DNA from: Chthonomonas calidirosea T49
Lineage (GTDB): Bacteria; Armatimonadota; Chthonomonadetes; Chthonomonadales; Chthonomonadaceae
Length of the DNA: 64,000 bases
Reading direction: 5' to 3'
NCBI RefSeq assembly: GCF_000427095.1
Contig: NC_021487.1
Coordinates: 372,001 to 436,000, forward strand
The notes below the pieces were generated by a model that was given only the letters and a program-made list of their open reading frames with translations, was not told the DNA's origin and searched no databases. Below are positions 16,632-26,633 of the stretch, in pieces (positions within the stretch are counted from its first letter, which is position 1; each line of letters begins with the position of its first letter). The position numbers and the translations under genes were made by a program.

Positions 16632-17773
16632 TTGCGGTTTTTTGGCATAACGTTGACGTAGACAGGAATGTCCATCTGCTCCCGATCGATCGCTTGTACG
16701 AAAACGTGAAGAGTAAGCGCTCCGGCGGGTGCGCTAGGGGTTAGTTGAACCTGCAGAATGCGTGTTAACGATGAATTGGATGAAGCGACGGTCGTTGGAG
16801 CGGGCAGAAGAAAAGCTTTAAGGTAGGGAGCGGAGGTACGGATGGTAAGGTCGTGCCATAGATCTGGGCGAGTAGTTTTTAAGGTGACTCTATCGTAAGC
16901 CGTACGTCCCTGAAAGACGGAACCTAACACGAGGACATGCGGATCGCATTGGAAGGCGCCAACGACGTTGGCTTTGAAGTAGGCTATATCATGTGCTATG
17001 GTATTTGACGGATAGGGGACAGTGGGGTAGAGGGTTCCCTGAAGCGGTCCTAGGGGCGCAAAAGGCTCTAGGGTCACTTGGTAGGCCGCTTCAATGGCGG
17101 TGCGTGAATGCCATTGAACCGTATGCGGTTTTGAGATTAAAACGGTTTTGATAAATGGTAAACTCCGTTGTCGATCCGAAGGCTGGGGAGCGGACAAAGG
17201 TGTCATGCCTAGCCGTAGCGGTTGGTGGAAGTTTTTCAGTAAACGAGCGTCTATGCGAACCTTGAGCATTTGGGAATGAGACTGCCCAAAAGGAACCGTG
17301 CCGAAATCCACCACCTGTGGATCGAATTCGATAAGAGGCAACACCGTACCCTTCATCTCCAAAGACACTGCCGGGGACAGATCGCCTTTCGTGAACACAT
17401 AGATGTATTTGGTGAAATCGCCTGGTTTGAGGTGGTCTACTTGGATGTCGGCATCAAGCGTAACGGTTTCGTTCGGGGCGATGATCGTCTGCCCGTTGGA
17501 CTCTATAGAGGGGGAGAGAAGGAGGGAAGTGCAGCCGCAGGAGGGTTGAATCTGTTCGATGGTAATGGGGTTGGTCGTATTGTTGTGCAGGTGAAAACTA
17601 CATTTCAGCGTTTTGGTCTGGAGTGGGTCTACGATACCAAAGTCATATACTGAGACACTAGCGGGAGGATGTTTGGAAGATAGCACAACGAGACCGGACG
17701 GTTGAGCTAATGCGATGGAAGCCGACGTTATGAGGAGGAATGTCAATAGCGGAGAGACTTGTAAGAGGCGCAT
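16628..17773 (-). CDS. secreted DUF1573 protein
   Basis: A 381-residue protein with a signal peptide (LLTFLLITSASIALAQ). The DUF1573 domain is visible at about residues 40-140: an Ig-like strand pattern VYDFGIVDPLQTKTLKCSF, then ITIEQIQPSCGCTS, the diagnostic Cys-Gly-Cys motif, and an FDPQVVDFGTVPFGQS second unit. DUF1573 domains are ASH/MSP-like beta-sandwiches of unknown role. The start codon shares one base with the stop of the upstream HAF-redoxin gene (TAATG), so they are coupled. This makes it the last gene of the pqq transcript. Confidence 0.8.
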   Translation of the reverse strand: MRLLQVSPLLTFLLITSASIALAQPSGLVVLSSKHPPASVSVYDFGIVDPLQTKTLKCSFHLHNNTTNPITIEQIQPSCGCTSLLLSPSIESNGQTIIAPNETVTLDADIQVDHLKPGDFTKYIYVFTKGDLSPAVSLEMKGTVLPLIEFDPQVVDFGTVPFGQSHSQMLKVRIDARLLKNFHQPLRLGMTPLSAPQPSDRQRSLPFIKTVLISKPHTVQWHSRTAIEAAYQVTLEPFAPLGPLQGTLYPTVPYPSNTIAHDIAYFKANVVGAFQCDPHVLVLGSVFQGRTAYDRVTLKTTRPDLWHDLTIRTSAPYLKAFLLPAPTTVASSNSSLTRILQVQLTPSAPAGALTLHVFVQAIDREQMDIPVYVNVMPKNRN

Positions 17774-19305
17774 TAGTGGGTCTCCGATGTTTTATTGGTT
17801 AACTGCTGAATTGCCTGGACGGCATTTAATGTAATTGTTATGCCTGTGGCTTTTTGAGGGGCATCGGCAGCATGATCGTTGGTGTAGATGATCTGTTGTT
17901 CCGTATTGAGAATAAAAACACGCGGGCATACCGGTGTTTTGTAGAGTAAGGCCACCCGCATGGACGGATCGGACAAGAGTAGGGTGTTTTTGATGTCGAG
18001 TTGCGTTTCCTGAAGGAATGTTTTTGCATCGTTTGCCGAACCGGTGAAGACGATAAGGGTAAGGCAGGTAGATGGTAACTTCCCGCTTTGTTGAACGGCC
18101 GCCCACGCGCGTGCACATTCTTGGCACCATGGACATCCACAAAAGAAGAAAAGCGCTAAAGGACGGTGAATATAGTCGCGTAGAGTGTGTAAACGGCCTT
18201 GCGTGTCCTTGAGCTGAAAGTTGGGAGCTGGGTCGGCTTTAGTGTCGGTGGTAAGCGGAGTCAACAAAAAGACATGGGTTTCTCCATCCAAGCGCCCGAT
18301 ACCAACGATCTGTCCGCGATTATTAATGCGAAAAGCGCGTTGGAGTATCCAACCGGAGTTTGAGGGGATGCAATGGTTTAGGTCTTCCATGTGCCCATTT
18401 TCCCATAGGAAAGCATGTTGGTGCTGATAACGGTCGGCGGAGGAGCCTACGATCTGCCCTTGTGCATTGATGCCCCATGCTGTAGAGGGAGAGTCACCAA
18501 GAGTTCCAAGGTCAACAATTTTATGATTTTTCCAAAGACAGGCATGGATATCTCCGTCTGCTGTGTTGGCCCAACCGACAACCACCCCTGCGTCGTTGAT
18601 AGCATGGGCGTGGCTAAAAGAGCCACCCGGAAGCAGACCAAGATCACTCATCTTTCCTTGGACATATACAAAGGCTCGGCTTACCGCTTTCGGGGCATTA
18701 TTAGATATCCCCACAACGGCATCCTTGTTGTTGATCCCCTCGGCAATGCTAAAATCCCCGTTGGGCAGGGTACCGAGATCGCGTATCTTACCATTATGAT
18801 AGAGAAAGGCATGTGTGAAACCGGAGGCAAGCTGGCTAAACCCGACGATATCCCCCTGTGCGTTGATGTCCAAAGCGGCACCAAACGAACCGCCTAGCCC
18901 GCCCAGGTCGTGCATAGATTCCTTTTCCCATAGAAAGGGATGCATAAAACGGACATCTTGGGCAGAGCGGGCGATACCTACAACCTGCAGTTTGTCGTTG
19001 AGCGCCGTCGCGTAAGTATCGGGATAGTTGGGCAGTCCATGCAATATTTTAAGCTGCCCTTCATGCCAAAGCCAGGCAGTGGGGTGCTCATTAAGTTTAG
19101 CAGGATGCCAACCGGTTACTGCTCCCTCTTGATTGATTGCTGGACCGATGTTGTCTGTTGGTGTTGAGATAAGACCTAAATCGGCCACGCGGTAGCGTAT
19201 CTTATTAGTCAAATTATGGGGAGGGGTTTCGATGCCTTCCTGTGGCTCTTGAAAAACCAGTAGGATGGGAAGGAAGAGAATGAGTAGCACTTTTGAACGC
19301 AGCAT
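17773..19305 (-). CDS. HAF-repeat protein fused to a redoxin domain
   Basis: A 510-residue protein, probably exported (N-terminal hydrophobic LLILFLPILLVFQ). Residues about 40-350 contain some seven HAF-type repeats: 'DLGxLxGxxSxAxxINxxGxVVGxS...HAFLWExG', for example DLGTLPNGDFSIAEGINN and DLGTLGDSPSTAWGINAQG. Residues about 365-500 are a peroxiredoxin/TlpA-like domain: APNFQLKDTQGRLHTL, then FFFCGCPWCQECARAW, which contains a CPWC redox pair, and KTPVCPRVFIL with the cis-proline region. The repeats plausibly form a propeller. I know of no described HAF-redoxin fusion. It follows pqqE by 15 nt. Confidence 0.75.
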   Translation of the reverse strand: MLRSKVLLILFLPILLVFQEPQEGIETPPHNLTNKIRYRVADLGLISTPTDNIGPAINQEGAVTGWHPAKLNEHPTAWLWHEGQLKILHGLPNYPDTYATALNDKLQVVGIARSAQDVRFMHPFLWEKESMHDLGGLGGSFGAALDINAQGDIVGFSQLASGFTHAFLYHNGKIRDLGTLPNGDFSIAEGINNKDAVVGISNNAPKAVSRAFVYVQGKMSDLGLLPGGSFSHAHAINDAGVVVGWANTADGDIHACLWKNHKIVDLGTLGDSPSTAWGINAQGQIVGSSADRYQHQHAFLWENGHMEDLNHCIPSNSGWILQRAFRINNRGQIVGIGRLDGETHVFLLTPLTTDTKADPAPNFQLKDTQGRLHTLRDYIHRPLALFFFCGCPWCQECARAWAAVQQSGKLPSTCLTLIVFTGSANDAKTFLQETQLDIKNTLLLSDPSMRVALLYKTPVCPRVFILNTEQQIIYTNDHAADAPQKATGITITLNAVQAIQQLTNKTSETH

Positions 19306-19320: not shown

Positions 19321-20415
19321 CTAGGAGTAGGTGCGATAACTTATTATATTCTTCATTTCATCTTGGGGCAATAGCGACTGACGAGACTCTTGCAGCTGTC
19401 GTTCAAGAAGAGGATGATGGGGAGAGAGAACACAGACGGGATCGGTTACCGAGGGATCGCCTGTGAGTAGCGCGGCTTGGCAACGACACCCTCCGAAGTC
19501 TATCTCTTTATAGGGGCAGCTACTGCAAGGCTCTTGCATCCATTCGGTGCCTCGGAAGCGGTTGAATGCCTCAGAGTGTTCCCAGATCCACTGCAGGGAG
19601 CGCTCTCGTACGCTGTCAAAAGTTAGATTAGGTATTTCATAAGCTGTAGGGCATGGGAGAACATCACCTATAGGATTTACGCAGAGATAGCGTCGTCCCC
19701 AGCCGTTCATGCAGGGTTTTGGACGCAGACTGTGGTAATCGGAAAGGACATAGAGTATCTCGATGCGATTTTTGTATGTTTTTCGCGCTTCTGCCACCGC
19801 TTTCGCGGCGTCCTCGATCTGTTGAGCGGAAGGCAACAAGGCTCTCCTATTTTTGAAAGCCCAACCGTAGTATTGCGTATTTGCCAGCTCTAAGCGTTTG
19901 GCTTTGAGGTTAACGGCAAATTCGATGATTTGAGGGATACGATGAATGTTGAAACGGTGAATCACCACATTTATGGTTAGTGGAAGGTTTATTTCTTGAA
20001 CAGCTTGAACTGCTAGGAGTTTTGAACGAAAGGCATTTGTACCGGCGATACTAAGGGCGAGAGCCGGCTCGTCGGCCTGGAAGCTAATTTGAACGCTATC
20101 AAGCCCTGCCTTTTTAAGGCGTTTTGCACGGGAGAGAGTAAGTCCTACTCCACTCGTGATAAGATTGGTGTAGAGACCAGCATCGTGGGCCGCTTCAATG
20201 AGCATCTCGATGTCTTTACGTTGTAGGGGCTCCCCTCCGGAGAGTAGGGCATGAAGAACGCCGAGATCGGCAGCTTGTCGGAAGACATGTGTCCATTCGT
20301 CCGTATTTAGCTCAGCATGCCCTTGCGGATAGCGCACAGGATTAGAGCAGTAAAGACAGCGGAGAGGGCATCGGTAGGTAAGTTCGGCTAGAAGACCAAA
20401 GGGACGGGTGTTCAT
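19321..20415 (-). CDS. pqqE: PqqE, radical SAM enzyme of PQQ synthesis
   Basis: PqqE forms the first Glu-Tyr carbon-carbon bond in the PqqA peptide. The radical SAM cluster motif is RCPLRCLYC (C16, C20, C23), followed by ALLSGGEPLQRKD. The C-terminal SPASM region has C-rich segments: KPCMNGWGRRYLCVNPIGDVLPC and CSSCPYKEIDFGGCRCQA. Its 364 aa fits the family. The start overlaps the pqqD stop by 4 nt. PqqD is encoded separately and would deliver PqqA to this enzyme. Confidence 0.96.
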   Translation of the reverse strand: MNTRPFGLLAELTYRCPLRCLYCSNPVRYPQGHAELNTDEWTHVFRQAADLGVLHALLSGGEPLQRKDIEMLIEAAHDAGLYTNLITSGVGLTLSRAKRLKKAGLDSVQISFQADEPALALSIAGTNAFRSKLLAVQAVQEINLPLTINVVIHRFNIHRIPQIIEFAVNLKAKRLELANTQYYGWAFKNRRALLPSAQQIEDAAKAVAEARKTYKNRIEILYVLSDYHSLRPKPCMNGWGRRYLCVNPIGDVLPCPTAYEIPNLTFDSVRERSLQWIWEHSEAFNRFRGTEWMQEPCSSCPYKEIDFGGCRCQAALLTGDPSVTDPVCVLSPHHPLLERQLQESRQSLLPQDEMKNIISYRTYS

Positions 20416-20732
20416 TGTCGGTTTTGATCGGACGATGGAGGTTCGTCTTCGAAAATAATAAGATTGCGTTGGTGAAGGCGATGGAGATAGGCCTGCACGT
20501 CAGCGATAAGGCTTTCGGCAGAGGCAGAGTACTGCTCACATAGCTTTGAGCAGATCGTGGCCAGATCGGTATAGCCGTCGCAGAGTTTGAGAACAGCGGA
20601 AGCTGTCTCGTTTAAAAGAAGCACACCTTCTGGGTACACAAGGACCATTTTGCCAGTGACCCGATCTTGTTGGAGACGGGCGTAAGAAGAGAGGATAGGA
20701 ATAGCATTTAGAGGTAGGGAGTTAGAACTCAT
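20412..20732 (-). CDS. pqqD: PqqD, peptide chaperone for PqqA
   Basis: A 106-residue RiPP recognition element. The family pattern is clear: LQQDRVTGKMVLVYPEGVLLLNETASAVLKLCDG, shown here as the two parts KMVLVYPEG and LNETASAVLKLCDG, followed by LATICSKLCEQY. These bind the PqqA leader and present it to PqqE. ATG 20732 is chosen because it overlaps the pqqC stop as TAATG, which couples translation. It overlaps pqqE by 4 nt at its other end. Confidence 0.95.
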   Translation of the reverse strand: MSSNSLPLNAIPILSSYARLQQDRVTGKMVLVYPEGVLLLNETASAVLKLCDGYTDLATICSKLCEQYSASAESLIADVQAYLHRLHQRNLIIFEDEPPSSDQNRQ

Positions 20733-21454
20733 TATTTTGTTTCCTCTTTTGACGGTTGTGTTGCGCCGCCATAGGCGAGTTGAATAGCATCTAACATAGC
20801 CCAGAGCAGATCGCATTTGAATGCGAGGGCCTCGACGGCCTTTTCTTGCAATTCACGTGTGTTACAATAGGTAAGCGTTAGCTCGAGACCTTCGTTCGAG
20901 TCACGCCGGGCTTGCATAAGTCGCGCACGGAAATACTGCAGCCCGTCTGGAACGATCCAGGTATAGTGTTTCTCAAAGGCAGCAAGTCGCTCGCGCATAA
21001 GGTCGGGAGCGAAAAGCTCTGTAAGAGAGGCTGCAATGGCGATAGGCCAAGGCTGTGTACGGCAGAAGTTGACGTAGGCATCCACGGCGAAACGCACCCC
21101 TGGCAAGAGGTAGCGATGGCTCCAAACATCATCACGTGATAGACCGGCTGCTTCAGCCAGTCGAAGCCAGGCTTCAATACCCCCTTCTCCTTGAGCTTGA
21201 CCATCGTGATCGAGAATTCGGTGAATCCAGATGCGACGAACTTCCGGCCGTGGGCAGTTGGAAAGAATGGCAGCATCCTTTATAGGAATGTTCTGTTGAT
21301 AGTAGAAGCGGTTGGCTATCCAGCCGCGAATCTGATTTTGAGAGAGTCGTCCGGCGTTCATCGCGATATGAAAAGGATGAAGATGGTGATAGCGATCCTT
21401 GCCAACGTCGCGTAAGCGCTGTAGAAATGTTTCTCTATCCCAGATTTCTGTCAT
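20732..21454 (-). CDS. pqqC: PqqC, PQQ synthase
   Basis: PqqC catalyses the last ring closure and eight-electron oxidation to PQQ. The 240-residue all-helical heme-oxygenase-like protein shows [20 protein letters not shown], the typical N-terminal region with substrate-binding histidines, then [23 protein letters not shown], here noted as [15 protein letters not shown], and [29 protein letters not shown] lies before the start, 18 nt after pqqB. The C-terminal 20 residues run into the pqqD start. Confidence 0.95.
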
Positions 21455-21472: not shown

Positions 21473-22387
21473 TTAGAGAACGAACTCCATACCATCTTCT
21501 CCTACAAGGCATCCAGCCGTTTCGACGATTCGGCGTTGATAGGAGTCGGGTATAAGGATAGGGTTGGTGTTGTTGATATGCACGTAGACTTTGCAACAGG
21601 TGCGAATAGCCATGAGATGGGACAGACTGCCGTTATGACCTGAAATAGGAAGATGGCCGATTTGTGTCGCGGTGCGGTTACTGAAGCCGAGTGCAATCAT
21701 CTCCTGTTCTTCCCAGAAAGTTCCATCTATGAGTAGAAGATCGCAACGAGCACACTCTGCCGTTAATGAGTCAGGCCAACACGGAAGGTCTGGGAGATAG
21801 AGGAGGCTTTTACCGGTTTTGGCATCGGTTAGAGAGAGGGCAACGATATGCTCCGTCGAAGCGTCTCTTGATTGAAGCCTATAGCGAGGGGGATTTCCAG
21901 GTAGGTCGATGGCTTGGACAAGCAGACCGGATGGCGACTCGTCTGCTAGCAGAAGCGGCTGCGGTATGTGAGGAAGAAGACGCCATATGAGCTGGGTGTA
22001 GGGACTAAGGATACGTTCTATGCCGAGCCCTTCGATGAGTGTCTGGCGCGTGGTTGGGGTGGTGTAGAGAACGAGCGGTGAGTGCTCGCGCAGCAGGAAG
22101 AGACCTAGGGCATGGTCGAGATCGGCATTCGTGATCAACACAGCTTGAATAGGAGTATGCCTCGCCGGATGGGGGTGAAGCCTTGGGAAGGCTTCGATCT
22201 GGAGAGTGATATCCGGCGAAGCATTCAAAATGAACCAGTTCTGTCCATCAGCGCTTACAACCACTGAAGATTGTGTTCGTGGCTTGACGGTATTCGGATC
22301 GGAACGAGCCTTAGAGCAGCAGAGACAGGCACAGTTCCATTGTGGGAAACCGCCACCTGCTGCGGTCCCTAATAGGCGTACGTACAT
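21473..22387 (-). CDS. pqqB: PqqB, metallo-beta-lactamase-fold hydroxylase of PQQ synthesis
   Basis: A 304-residue PqqB. The protein opens VRLLGTAAGGGFPQWNCACLCC, containing the family's CxCxxC zinc site near residues 19-24. The active-site region NADLDHALGLFLLREH matches the DHxxGL segment of PqqB rather than a classic HxHxDH hydrolase. LLIDGTFWEEQEM and IGHLPISGHNGSL follow, with the metal-binding His residues. PqqB hydroxylates the tyrosine moiety of the crosslinked precursor. It lies 82 nt downstream of pqqA. Confidence 0.95.
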   Translation of the reverse strand: MYVRLLGTAAGGGFPQWNCACLCCSKARSDPNTVKPRTQSSVVVSADGQNWFILNASPDITLQIEAFPRLHPHPARHTPIQAVLITNADLDHALGLFLLREHSPLVLYTTPTTRQTLIEGLGIERILSPYTQLIWRLLPHIPQPLLLADESPSGLLVQAIDLPGNPPRYRLQSRDASTEHIVALSLTDAKTGKSLLYLPDLPCWPDSLTAECARCDLLLIDGTFWEEQEMIALGFSNRTATQIGHLPISGHNGSLSHLMAIRTCCKVYVHINNTNPILIPDSYQRRIVETAGCLVGEDGMEFVL

Positions 22388-22600: not shown

Positions 22601-25600
22601 TTATGGAACGGTATAGGTCCAGGTGAGTATCTCCTGGGTAGCAGTAAGTCCGCCGGTTCCTCCAGTAAAGCCGACATAGCCTATAGGGCTTCCGATGGTG
22701 TTAGGAATGTCTATTTGATAAGACTGTGTAGCCGTTGCAGAAGTTTGGGTGTCGCGTATGGTAACCTGGAGGGTAGTGCCATCGTAGACCATATCTACGG
22801 CGAAGATATGGCCACTATGGAGATCAATCCCAGTGTTGGAGAGGTCAATGGCAGGGACGGTAGGGGGTGCTCCATTCGTATAGAGGCCTGTAGAGTCGGT
22901 GCCTTCCCCGCTATTGTTGTACAGATCGAACTTTATGGCGACGCTGTTATTAATGCCTTCATAGCCCAGCGACCCGCCGGCAGCACCTAGCGCCGTCGGC
23001 CCATCACTTTGGATGGTGAAGGTAAAGCCGTCGGCTTGTGCATTTTGGATTTGGAAAGTGAAGTGGTTGTGGAACTTTCGTACGTCTACGAGATATTTAA
23101 AGAAGGCGCTGCTCGCTTCAAAGTAGGTGGCACTGTTGGTGAGTTGCAGACGGGTATCGTCGAAAGTGGCACCGCCATTCAGCACGATATTGCCTGAGCT
23201 GCTGAAGCCCGAGGGGTAGTTCGGTAGTATTTTTGGAAGCGGCGTTGCGCTCGCCTCGTTGGAAAGCACACTTTGACCAAAGCTGTTGACGGCAGCAACT
23301 CGATAATAGTAAGTTGAATTTGCTTGCACGCCTGTATCGGAGAAAGAAGGTGAGGTGATACCGGTTTTGTAGAGAGTTTCAGCTCCTGAGGCGGTGGCAC
23401 GATAGATGTTGTAGCTAGAGGCTCCTCCGATGGGGTCCCATTGGAGGTTGACTTGCAAGATATCGGGGTTGGCTACCAGCTCGGTTGGTGCCGCCGGAGG
23501 ACCGCCGGGGCTACAGACAGTGAGAAACGGTGGGTGGACACCAGCTTCACGGGAGTAGAAATTGGTCATAACATCCTTAAGCCCACGATAGGGTGTGAGA
23601 GCGACGGAAAACTGTTTATTTGTAGTGGCTATCTGTTTTAGGAAGTAGAGACTAACATCCCAGCGATAGTATTGATCGTTTGGTGAGATTCGTGTATTTG
23701 CAAAGGGATAGAGCAGCGACGGCATGTTATTCCAAGTTATTGTTCTCTCATCCCATGTACTGTTCGACACGGCTTGTGCAGTTACTAGAGTTACGCGGCC
23801 GTTTTGACTAGAGCCGAAGAGAGCGAGAAAGGCCCCACTCAGCGGAGATGATAGTCCAGAGAGGTCGAATTTGAGAAATGTATAGCAGGTATCATTTAGA
23901 GAGTCGTTGCTGACTCTCAAATTTTGAGCCGCGCCAAAATTCTGATTCGCATAGATTCCTGCACAAGTATAGGCGTCGGAAGTAGGGGAGAGAGTTTTAG
24001 TGCCCCCACGTCCGAGCTGTGGACTTGCAGCCACTTCGTTAGAAGGGGGGCTTTCGCCTCCGTTATTCTGTGCGGTAACACGATAATAGTAGATAATTCC
24101 GTCTTGGAGGCCGGTATCGGTGAAGTAGTTTTGAGAGACATTTTGTTTATACAATGTCTCCTGCCCACTTATCGTTCCTCGGTAGATGTTGTAGCTATCG
24201 GCATTGGAGACGGGTGTCCACGAGAGGGCAACTTGCTGATCGCCTACGGAAGCAGTTAAGGAGGATGGAGCGGTGGGGCGGACGGAATCGAGCAGGCCAT
24301 AGACAACAAGTTGTCCAGCTCCGATGGGGTCATTAGGCGCACCGAAGCTAGCCATATAGACTTTGCCGTTAGCGATTGTGGGGCAACAAAACTTAGCAAA
24401 TTTGCCAATATCATCTCGGCTGACGTTCATCCTACTATTCCACAGCTCTTTAAGACGAGGGATACCTTGGCTATCCACCGAAATGCTGTTGGCATCGAAA
24501 GCCTGAAGAATACCCGGTACCACGGCATTATTGGCGTTACCTTGATAGGGATGAGATGCCCAAATAATCGCAGTACCTGGCTTTTGGCCGTTTGCAGAGA
24601 TGGAAAGCATGGCTCCAGGCATGCCATCGGGAACCCTGTTGGGACTATATGCGATGGGAGTTGCGTTGAAGTAGGTGCCTTTAAATGCAAAGACTTTCAG
24701 ATAGTCCTCTTCAGACCAGACATAGATGCAAGGGCCATTCACCGGGCTATTATAGTAGACGGGAGAGCCGTGTATGTGCCCGTTGCCTGCTTGGAAGCTC
24801 TGTACGATTTGGGTATCTCCACCTGGATTAAAGTGGCCAAGGTTATGGATATTTAATAGGTAAAAGACGCCTTGTTTTCCTCCACCGATGATATAAGGGG
24901 TATTGGGGATAACGAGTACGCCGGAGGAACCTAGGTCCAGATCGGCCGCATTGAGACTGTCCACGTTGTAGGGCGTAAACCAGTCAAGTACTTTAAGGCC
25001 ACCCTGATTAGGGATAGCGGGGCTAAGCTTTATGAAGCTACAGCCTAGGTCAGGGCCGCCCGTGTTCGCATCGAATGTGCCATTGCCCGTCATGATATAG
25101 ATATTGCCATCTTGCCCAACAGTGGGTCCCTCACCGGACTGCCATATGCCCCCTTCTGTTCCATTGAGGGTATCGCAATAAGTGGCAATTTGGTGCAGAT
25201 TCGAGGCATCGTAAGCAACGATCCATCCATGATAGGGGCCGCAATCGTTATGAGATGCCCACGAAATGTAGACGGCGCCACGATAGAGGAGGAGAGCTGG
25301 ACGCTGGTTTTGAATCTTTGGATCGAAGGTTAGATTGCCATAGGAGGCGGTGATCTCGACCGGCCCGTTTAGCCGTTCTTGGCCGGTGGTGATATCAAGT
25401 GCATGCAGCCATTGATGATAGGTACCATCCGGGTTTTTATTACGACTAACTAAGTACATCAGATTAGTACTTGGATCGATGACGGGTGTGCTGAGAATGC
25501 CGACGCGGACAGAGATATCGGTGCAGCAGCACTGAACATCGGAGGCCGGAACAGGAGGGCCGAAATTATCTTGCCAAAGTGGTGCTGACTGGTTGGGGTC

Positions 25601-25933
25601 GTCCGCGTCGAAGGCATAGACGCTGTTATTCATTGTTGCGACAAAAACAACATTATGGATGCCTTTTCCTGGAACGAGTAGATGGGGCACATAGAGCGGT
25701 TGTGCATAGATTTCAGCGTCTACGTGACGGGTGAAGAGCTTACCAAATTTCTGAACGTTTACATTGGAAGTATTAAGGATGGTCTCGTTTAGGTTTGCGC
25801 CGGAACGATAGATATCGTTATGTTGGGTAAGTACAGAGACCTGAGCGGACAGGGGCAGTGCTAGAACGAGCCAGACAATGAGGCCAATAACTGCAGTGCG
25901 TATCGAGCAGGTGCGATCACGAAGCCGGCGCAT
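22601..25933 (-). CDS. large secreted PQQ-like propeller, Fn3, DNRLRE and lectin-domain protein
   Basis: An 1110-residue exported protein. Domains in order: signal peptide (1-31); a quinoprotein-like beta-propeller (about 33-548; blades with NNSVYAFDADD, NGKVYMASFG); Fn3 (about 555-640); a DNRLRE-type domain (about 645-808; TSDAYTCAGIYANQNFG, then YTFLKFDLSGL); Fn3 (about 812-898); and a legume-type lectin domain (about 905-1110; FTFQIQNAQADGFTFTIQ). The two Fn3 copies share YNIYR-x-T-x-SG-x-ETLYK. Vicinal cysteines occur at 135-137 and 516-517. AAAGGAGAAG precedes the ATG. It is the first gene of the pqq run. Whether the propeller binds PQQ is not shown. Confidence 0.85.
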   Translation of the reverse strand: MRRLRDRTCSIRTAVIGLIVWLVLALPLSAQVSVLTQHNDIYRSGANLNETILNTSNVNVQKFGKLFTRHVDAEIYAQPLYVPHLLVPGKGIHNVVFVATMNNSVYAFDADDPNQSAPLWQDNFGPPVPASDVQCCCTDISVRVGILSTPVIDPSTNLMYLVSRNKNPDGTYHQWLHALDITTGQERLNGPVEITASYGNLTFDPKIQNQRPALLLYRGAVYISWASHNDCGPYHGWIVAYDASNLHQIATYCDTLNGTEGGIWQSGEGPTVGQDGNIYIMTGNGTFDANTGGPDLGCSFIKLSPAIPNQGGLKVLDWFTPYNVDSLNAADLDLGSSGVLVIPNTPYIIGGGKQGVFYLLNIHNLGHFNPGGDTQIVQSFQAGNGHIHGSPVYYNSPVNGPCIYVWSEEDYLKVFAFKGTYFNATPIAYSPNRVPDGMPGAMLSISANGQKPGTAIIWASHPYQGNANNAVVPGILQAFDANSISVDSQGIPRLKELWNSRMNVSRDDIGKFAKFCCPTIANGKVYMASFGAPNDPIGAGQLVVYGLLDSVRPTAPSSLTASVGDQQVALSWTPVSNADSYNIYRGTISGQETLYKQNVSQNYFTDTGLQDGIIYYYRVTAQNNGGESPPSNEVAASPQLGRGGTKTLSPTSDAYTCAGIYANQNFGAAQNLRVSNDSLNDTCYTFLKFDLSGLSSPLSGAFLALFGSSQNGRVTLVTAQAVSNSTWDERTITWNNMPSLLYPFANTRISPNDQYYRWDVSLYFLKQIATTNKQFSVALTPYRGLKDVMTNFYSREAGVHPPFLTVCSPGGPPAAPTELVANPDILQVNLQWDPIGGASSYNIYRATASGAETLYKTGITSPSFSDTGVQANSTYYYRVAAVNSFGQSVLSNEASATPLPKILPNYPSGFSSSGNIVLNGGATFDDTRLQLTNSATYFEASSAFFKYLVDVRKFHNHFTFQIQNAQADGFTFTIQSDGPTALGAAGGSLGYEGINNSVAIKFDLYNNSGEGTDSTGLYTNGAPPTVPAIDLSNTGIDLHSGHIFAVDMVYDGTTLQVTIRDTQTSATATQSYQIDIPNTIGSPIGYVGFTGGTGGLTATQEILTWTYTVP

Positions 25934-26108: not shown

Positions 26109-26633
26109 TCAGCCGGGTTTTATGGAGGGGGCGTCGTCTTCTGGAAGAACAACGGGAGTATAGGGTTTATTTGTCGCTTCGGCAGCACGTTTTGCGATCT
26201 CATTAAAGCCGGTCTGATTAAAGTGACCAGGAATTGCATAAAGGATAGTTTCCTGGCTACCTAAAAGATAGAGATCGGGCACTCCGATGAGGTTATACCA
26301 CTCAGCAACGTCGAGATTGCTGTCGAGGACAATGGGAAAAGTGAGATTTCCATACTCCTTTGCAAAAGCTTCGGTAGCCGCTGCGTCGTCTTGGGAAACG
26401 CCGAGAACGGTGAATTTACCGTCGGAGCCTTCTGCATATTGGCGATGTAGCCTCTGAATGAAAGGAGCAGAGTATTTGCAGGTACCGCAACCAACTTTAA
26501 AGATAAAGAGGAGCAGCAGACCTTTCTTTCTTAGCTCGGCCGTGGAGTAGAGCCGTCCATGGGCATCTTGCAGTTCGAAGTCTATAATCTTATCTCCTGT
26601 TTGTAGCGGTTGGGGCATCGCATCTGCGCTCAT
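26109..26633 (-). CDS. redoxin / AhpC-TSA-like thioredoxin-fold protein
   Basis: A 174-residue peroxiredoxin-like protein: KIIDFELQDAHGRLYSTAEL, then LFIFKVGCGTCKYSAPFIQRLH with a CGTC redox pair at about residue 53, and IGVPDLYLLG with the cis-proline. It resembles TlpA/ResA or BCP-type oxidoreductases but has no signal peptide, so it is probably cytoplasmic. The gene starts 14 nt after secA stops and shares its transcript. Its last 20 residues are Pro/Asp-rich. Confidence 0.85.
   Translation of the reverse strand: MSADAMPQPLQTGDKIIDFELQDAHGRLYSTAELRKKGLLLLFIFKVGCGTCKYSAPFIQRLHRQYAEGSDGKFTVLGVSQDDAAATEAFAKEYGNLTFPIVLDSNLDVAEWYNLIGVPDLYLLGSQETILYAIPGHFNQTGFNEIAKRAAEATNKPYTPVVLPEDDAPSIKPG

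Follow-up and report, generated by a model that had tools for sequence, protein, structure and literature searches.

A four-cysteine redoxin fused to a HAF-repeat propeller and its DUF1573 neighbour in Chthonomonas calidirosea T49 point to an undescribed redox pair

Within a stretch of 64,000 nucleotides of the Chthonomonas calidirosea T49 genome (NC_021487.1, positions 372,001 to 436,000; hereafter the window), one gene encodes a HAF-repeat beta-propeller domain joined to a C-terminal thioredoxin-fold domain, and the gene that follows it encodes a DUF1573 protein. Sequence comparisons establish the architecture of this HAF-redoxin fusion, the four invariant cysteines and one invariant proline of its redoxin domain, the recurrent pairing of this domain with DUF1573, and the co-occurrence of the fusion with cysteines in the loops of a family of propeller proteins. 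Each of the domains is already known separately. Their combination points to the four-cysteine redoxin and DUF1573 as an undescribed redox pair: in the open-access literature, as far as titles and the beginnings of abstracts go, neither the four-cysteine site nor the pairing with DUF1573 nor the fusion to HAF repeats was found described.

The redoxin domain scores above the Pfam cut-offs of AhpC-TSA (PF00578; amino acids (aa) 358-474, E 1.4e-10, 41.6 bits against 26) and Redoxin (PF08534; 33.2 against 26.6), and below those of the NCBIfam models for ResA (NF002854; 19.1 against 170 bits) and for a SelL-related redox protein (NF040769; 26.1 against 120 bits); 18 of the 24 family members match the ResA model at E <= 0.01. 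The nearest listed fold neighbours of this part are Bcp1 (3drn; Z 20.4, 143 residues aligned, root mean square deviation (rmsd) 1.7) and ResA (2f9s; Z 18.8, 136 aligned, rmsd 2.0). In the family profile C391 and C394 align to both cysteines of the WCEPC motif of ResA, and in the AlphaFold model they lie at the start of helix 392-407, with P461 before strand 462-466. The CPWC motif is for these reasons the canonical CxxC of a thioredoxin-fold oxidoreductase, placed as in redoxins, just as the initial annotation had supposed; the cis-proline region that it had recognized is also present, as P461 preceded by C460.

The sole invariant columns in an alignment of 24 complete redoxins of the family are C389, C391, C394, C460 and P461 (CxCxxC ... 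CP), and both CGCxxC and CPR are invariant among 11 aligned relatives. Two points had earlier been overlooked, namely that the invariance of C389 and C460 equals that of the CxxC, and that DUF1573 belongs to the unit. All 24 complete members have both extra cysteines, and neither is found in any of the ten other complete profile matches at E <= 0.01, some of which are weak and two of which (L099 at 1341 and L103 at 2716) are without normal thioredoxin motifs. Left out of these counts were the partial sequences L031 and L066 at 422, in which the first three cysteines are present, as well as L073, which is in two pieces, and a spurious 25-aa piece (L036 at 8545). The 11 sequences behind the first redoxin profile all have four cysteines, so that its matches lean towards four-cysteine proteins; across the phylum, for which profile and match counts refer to 291 genomes, the redoxin profile finds matches in 33 genomes at E <= 1e-10, weaker ones without the extra cysteines included. 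C397, which gives the window protein an apparent WCxxC, is not conserved.

Other redoxins were seen along the way. The window holds a separate ResA/TlpA-like redoxin (26109-26633, minus strand) upstream of the propeller gene described below, with the motif VGCGTCK, a valine before the cis-proline and no extra cysteines; a terminator-like hairpin of 13 pairs (26053-26022) lies between these two genes. Elsewhere, the four-cysteine redoxins of L094, L095 and L099 begin with what resembles a membrane anchor and are without DUF1573 in the stretch that was read, and two of them adjoin what appear by eye to be TPR and FG-GAP proteins.

Pairing with DUF1573 is found for 20 of the 24 redoxins, in the same open reading frame (ORF) in 11 cases and in an adjacent one in nine, with the redoxin first in 15 pairs and DUF1573 first in five. 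Among the family genomes (n=17), eight of 11 DUF1573 matches lie at a redoxin locus, the remaining three being in G044. The window partner scores 49.1 bits on PF07610 (cut-off 26.1) and 33.1 bits on the OS_HP2 (seleno)protein model NF041425, below its cut-off of 100. A CxC motif is present in all 19 DUF1573 rows of alignment A6, as CGC in 16 and CSC in three. Selenoprotein surveys, in the excerpts consulted, tabulate DUF1573 proteins in which this motif is UGC (UxC) (PMC9312934, PMC13188914, PMC2398784), from which the CxC motif is likely a redox centre, as in these selenoprotein relatives. In the three papers of the open-access library searched that mention DUF1573, no redoxin partner is named in the text around the mention.

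Away from the redoxins, at three of eight other DUF1573 loci (L170, L171 and L173, in G150, G118 and G145) the DUF1573 gene is followed by one for a protein with PCGC and several CxxCH haem motifs. This protein, which we take to be UshA-like, also has a CGC motif and is a further candidate for a redox partner. A further DUF1573 match (G021:C1:1688411-1688605) lies within an open frame of 7707 codons.

The fusion itself is genuine, as the initial annotation had proposed: the gene is a single open frame, and the two-domain architecture recurs in four genomes (G039-G042), all from a single further genus in the same bacterial family, in the same order and with 40-46% identity. A gene-calling artefact or overlooked frameshift is virtually ruled out by this one open frame and by the same junction, in one frame, in the four other genomes. 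Among the matches listed, those spanning both HAF and redoxin come from the own genome and G039-G042. In the latter, HAF, redoxin and DUF1573 stand within a single ORF of 793-925 codons (the frame of G039 begins inside the HAF part); in the window organism the three domains are split over two overlapping genes; and G054, which belongs to this bacterial family too, has a redoxin-DUF1573 fusion gene with a stand-alone HAF gene about 0.5 kb downstream on that strand. Fusion, fission and neighbourhood thus join the same three parts each in their own way. Beyond the phylum set, a single search of a contig collection returned one locus, in a Capsulimonas metagenome-assembled genome, and plasmids queried with the redoxin-DUF1573 portion of G042 yielded nothing at E 1e-3.

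The N-terminal domain is a clear member of the HAF-repeat family (HAF_rpt, TIGR02913 of NCBIfam; E 5e-64, 212 bits against a cut-off of 22.65, in five stretches). AlphaFold models the HAF-redoxin protein with a mean predicted local distance difference test of 90.1 and predicts 27 strands over aa 38-350, arranged in about seven blades, with block means of 82-98 over aa 41-350. The "about seven HAF units" first counted therefore hold for the predicted blades, whereas the regular HAF units number five. The closest listed fold to this part is CylK (7fh7; Z 28.9, 291 residues aligned, rmsd 3.3). Four other HAF proteins were scanned outside the fusion genomes, and no redoxin family appeared in that scan.

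A possible client is encoded in the same minus-strand run of genes, which comprises the propeller-lectin gene, pqqA, pqqB, pqqC, pqqD, pqqE, the HAF-redoxin gene and the DUF1573 gene. The propeller-lectin protein has an ortholog in G042 with 49% identity over the full protein, in which QCCCTD, HNDC and GCSF are kept, and whose gene lies directly upstream of the HAF-redoxin-DUF1573 gene, without intervening pqq genes. Of the best 43 loci of the client's propeller family (out of 57 match rows), seven have a neighbouring HAF gene: five without redoxin, in G015, G024 and, three times, G021, and the remaining two in the window and G042. In a tree of the 39 rows with 420 aa or more, the propellers of G000, G042, G040, G041 and G039 form a clade with support 99/98. 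By eye, cysteines occur in all three propeller loops in five of the 39 rows, which belong only to the five genomes in which the fusion was found; some of those in G039-G041 occupy other columns than in the window and G042, and the propellers of L133 and L150 have cysteines in two loops out of three. This co-occurrence lends the propeller link some support at the level of sequence, and the five genomes, being one clade, make it one evolutionary event. The link to a cysteine-containing propeller, drawn at the outset, is plausible in view of the G042 adjacency, the seven HAF loci and the loop cysteines, but DUF1573 is the more regular partner. As a separate observation, pairs of a propeller and a stand-alone HAF gene recur in both orders without redoxin (G021:C1, G015:C29, G024:C134).

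The reading that we prefer, at about an even chance of being right, is an exported thiol redox pair of redoxin and DUF1573, tethered by the HAF propeller to a client. The HAF-redoxin protein would be exported, and its C-terminal domain would act as a ResA/TlpA-like thioredoxin-fold oxidoreductase with a four-cysteine site made of the CxxC (C391/C394), C389 and C460. Its usual redox partner would be the neighbouring DUF1573 protein, through the CGC motif, with electrons or disulfides crossing directly between both cysteine centres. The HAF propeller may serve as a rigid docking module that holds the two proteins to a client outside the cell, for which the cysteine-containing propeller/lectin protein of the same locus is the likeliest candidate. 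The own genome has matches to DsbD_TM, a reducing family, and to VKOR and DsbA, which are oxidising, so that neither direction of electron flow is favoured. The VKOR and DsbA matches of G000:C1:130566-131786 stand side by side in a shared frame of 430 aa, probably a VKOR-DsbA fusion.

Several observations weigh against this proposal. Four of the 24 redoxins (G044, G209, G210 and G211) are without DUF1573 in the stretches read, and two of the 19 partner rows miss E 0.001 on PF07610 and are supported by the local profile alone (17 of 28 rows match PF07610). In G054 (L036) the DUF1573 part reaches 18.6 bits on PF07610, against the cut-off of 26.1, and 92 bits on the local profile. DUF1573 is found in 170 of the 291 genomes, far more commonly than the redoxin profile (33), which implies that its general role is wider and that the redoxin mostly goes with DUF1573, not the reverse; the eight other DUF1573 loci examined showed no four-cysteine redoxin of this kind. 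The redoxin-DUF1573 model has a predicted template modelling score of only 0.68, and the neighbours that a fold search with it listed belong mainly to the redoxin part, which says little about the DUF1573 part. In G039-G041 the fusion had no propeller next to it in the stretches seen. Finally, as to the signal peptide cleavage site that the initial annotation had suggested looking for, the N-terminus of the HAF-redoxin protein is a hydrophobic stretch (MLRSKVLLILFLPILLVF), but a clear AxA cleavage site is missing.

Table 1. Coordinates of the features discussed, in positions of the window.
Feature	Position	Strand	Details
DUF1573 gene, 381 aa	16628..17773	-	signal peptide-like N-terminus; start overlaps HAF-redoxin stop (TAATG)
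CGC motif of DUF1573, aa 79-81	17531..17539	-	alignment
HAF-propeller + redoxin gene	17773..19305	-	510 aa, ATG start, one frame without internal stop
Thioredoxin-fold domain, aa 356-505	17791..18240	-	PF00578 and fold neighbours
C460-P461	17923..17928	-	Cys directly before cis-proline position, invariant in 24/24
CGCPWC, aa 389-394	18124..18141	-	extra C389 and redox CxxC C391/C394, invariant in 24/24
HAF-repeat beta-propeller domain, aa 38-350	18256..19194	-	TIGR02913 and AlphaFold model
pqqE	19321..20415	-	TIGR02109, 509.1 bits; HAF-redoxin gene starts 15 bases after
pqqD, start uncertain	20412..20816	-	TIGR03859, 71.9 bits
pqqC	20732..21454	-	TIGR02111, 336.5 bits
pqqB	21473..22387	-	TIGR02108, 356.4 bits
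pqqA-like peptide gene, 27 aa	22470..22553	-	MQEWTTPDFEEISVNAECSAYVLCDEN behind AAGGAGG, assigned by eye; below the length at which ORFs were listed
Propeller-fn3-CBM96-lectin protein, 1110 aa, possible client	22601..25933	-	CCC at aa 135-137, C231, C298

Other explanations of the same data differ in what they ask of the four cysteines and of the neighbouring genes. Conservation of all four as a unit would also suit a site where four thiolates bind a metal or an iron-sulfur cluster (mononuclear Fe, [2Fe-2S] or Zn), in which case the domain would be an electron carrier or would handle metal instead of exchanging disulfides. In E. coli thioredoxin, I75 stands directly before cis-Pro76 and W28 four residues ahead of Cys32, so that both positions are close to those of C460 and C389. 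According to excerpts of PMC6210436, E. coli thioredoxin with the W28C and I75C substitutions binds a mononuclear [FeS4] centre together with its two active-site cysteines, and dimers of the CACC and CACA variants are bridged by a cluster bound through the CxC. The title of a cited paper states that the cis-proline precludes metal binding, and this proline is kept in 24 of 24 redoxins; C389 is moreover two residues before C391, not four, which leaves the geometry unproven, and such sites would be less usual in an oxidising envelope. A metal site is on balance unlikely. Equally improbable, in our estimate, is the broader scheme that could be built from it, in which a natural tetrathiolate family of the thioredoxin fold would form an envelope electron-transfer pair with the CGC centre of DUF1573 (UGC in its relatives), docked by HAF to a client. 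The peroxiredoxin or thiol peroxidase that the Pfam name AhpC-TSA suggests would agree with PF00578 and PF08534 being over their cut-offs and with Bcp1 heading the fold neighbours listed for this domain. The peroxiredoxin motif PxxxT/SxxC is absent from the window protein on inspection. Moreover, the cis-proline position holds proline in all 24 sequences and not the arginine that peroxiredoxins carry there according to excerpts of PMC2757866, which sets the domain outside the peroxiredoxins, and we reject this very improbable assignment.

The remaining alternatives concern the neighbourhood. A specific role in making, removing or shuffling disulfides of the propeller/lectin protein, close to the initial suggestion that the fusion could deliver or remove disulfides for this client, appears doubtful, although something can be said for it: the two genes adjoin in G042 and share a gene run in the window, the three-loop cysteines are confined to the fusion clade, and HAF genes accompany propellers even where redoxin is absent. 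That clade, however, is a single one in which the loop columns of G039-G041 differ and no propeller was seen beside their fusions; other propellers (L133, L150) have cysteines in two of the loops; redoxin is present at only two of the 43 propeller loci; and 14 of the 20 redoxin-DUF1573 pairs are without a HAF part in the stretch read, HAF having been sought around 30 redoxin loci with five weak rows left out (G004 twice, G088, G074 and G162). The position after pqqE, on the same strand and with 15 bases between the genes, is as first stated, and it could suggest a part in the biosynthesis of pyrroloquinoline quinone (PQQ) or in the assembly of PQQ enzymes. PqqC, however, is over its cut-off in only two of the 291 genomes, with weaker matches in ten more, as against 33 for the redoxin profile; in G042 the propeller and the fusion have no pqq genes between them, and G054 carries pqqC and pqqE on a different contig from the redoxin. 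Because of this rarity and separation the pqq context is probably incidental, and a dependence on pqq, to which we give a very small chance, is rejected. In the window genome the pqq and HAF-redoxin genes may still be co-transcribed. A promoter scan gave six sites against 9.5 in shuffles. As a whole, the initial interpretation of the fusion is partly supported.

An exported redoxin-DUF1573 pair, if correct, would matter chiefly for DUF1573, which Pfam lists as a protein of unknown function although it is present in 170 of the 291 phylum genomes and has selenocysteine forms. A recurrent four-cysteine thioredoxin partner gives it a concrete and testable redox hypothesis, and the fused homologs, which hold both cysteine centres in one chain, should be useful for biochemistry. 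Should the cysteines bind metal instead, the family would be the natural equivalent of a protein once made by design.

Compared with known systems, the redoxin domain resembles periplasmic oxidoreductases of the ResA/TlpA/DsbE type in its thioredoxin fold, in a CxxC at the same place and in its cis-proline, and differs from them by the additional C389 and C460, the DUF1573 partner and the HAF fusion. HAF-repeat proteins (TIGR02913) find in the N-terminal domain of the window protein a clear member, set apart by its fusion to a redoxin. The DUF1573 selenoproteins have UGC where the window partner has CGC, that is, cysteine and not selenocysteine. The remaining relative is an engineered thioredoxin of E. 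coli, in which the upstream cysteine stands four residues ahead and not two as here, and which was designed, whereas the present arrangement is natural and is known from sequence. What that W28C/I75C protein, with its [FeS4] centre (Benson 1998, as cited in the excerpts of PMC6210436), shares with the redoxins described here is the CxxC, a cysteine before the cis-proline and a further cysteine upstream.

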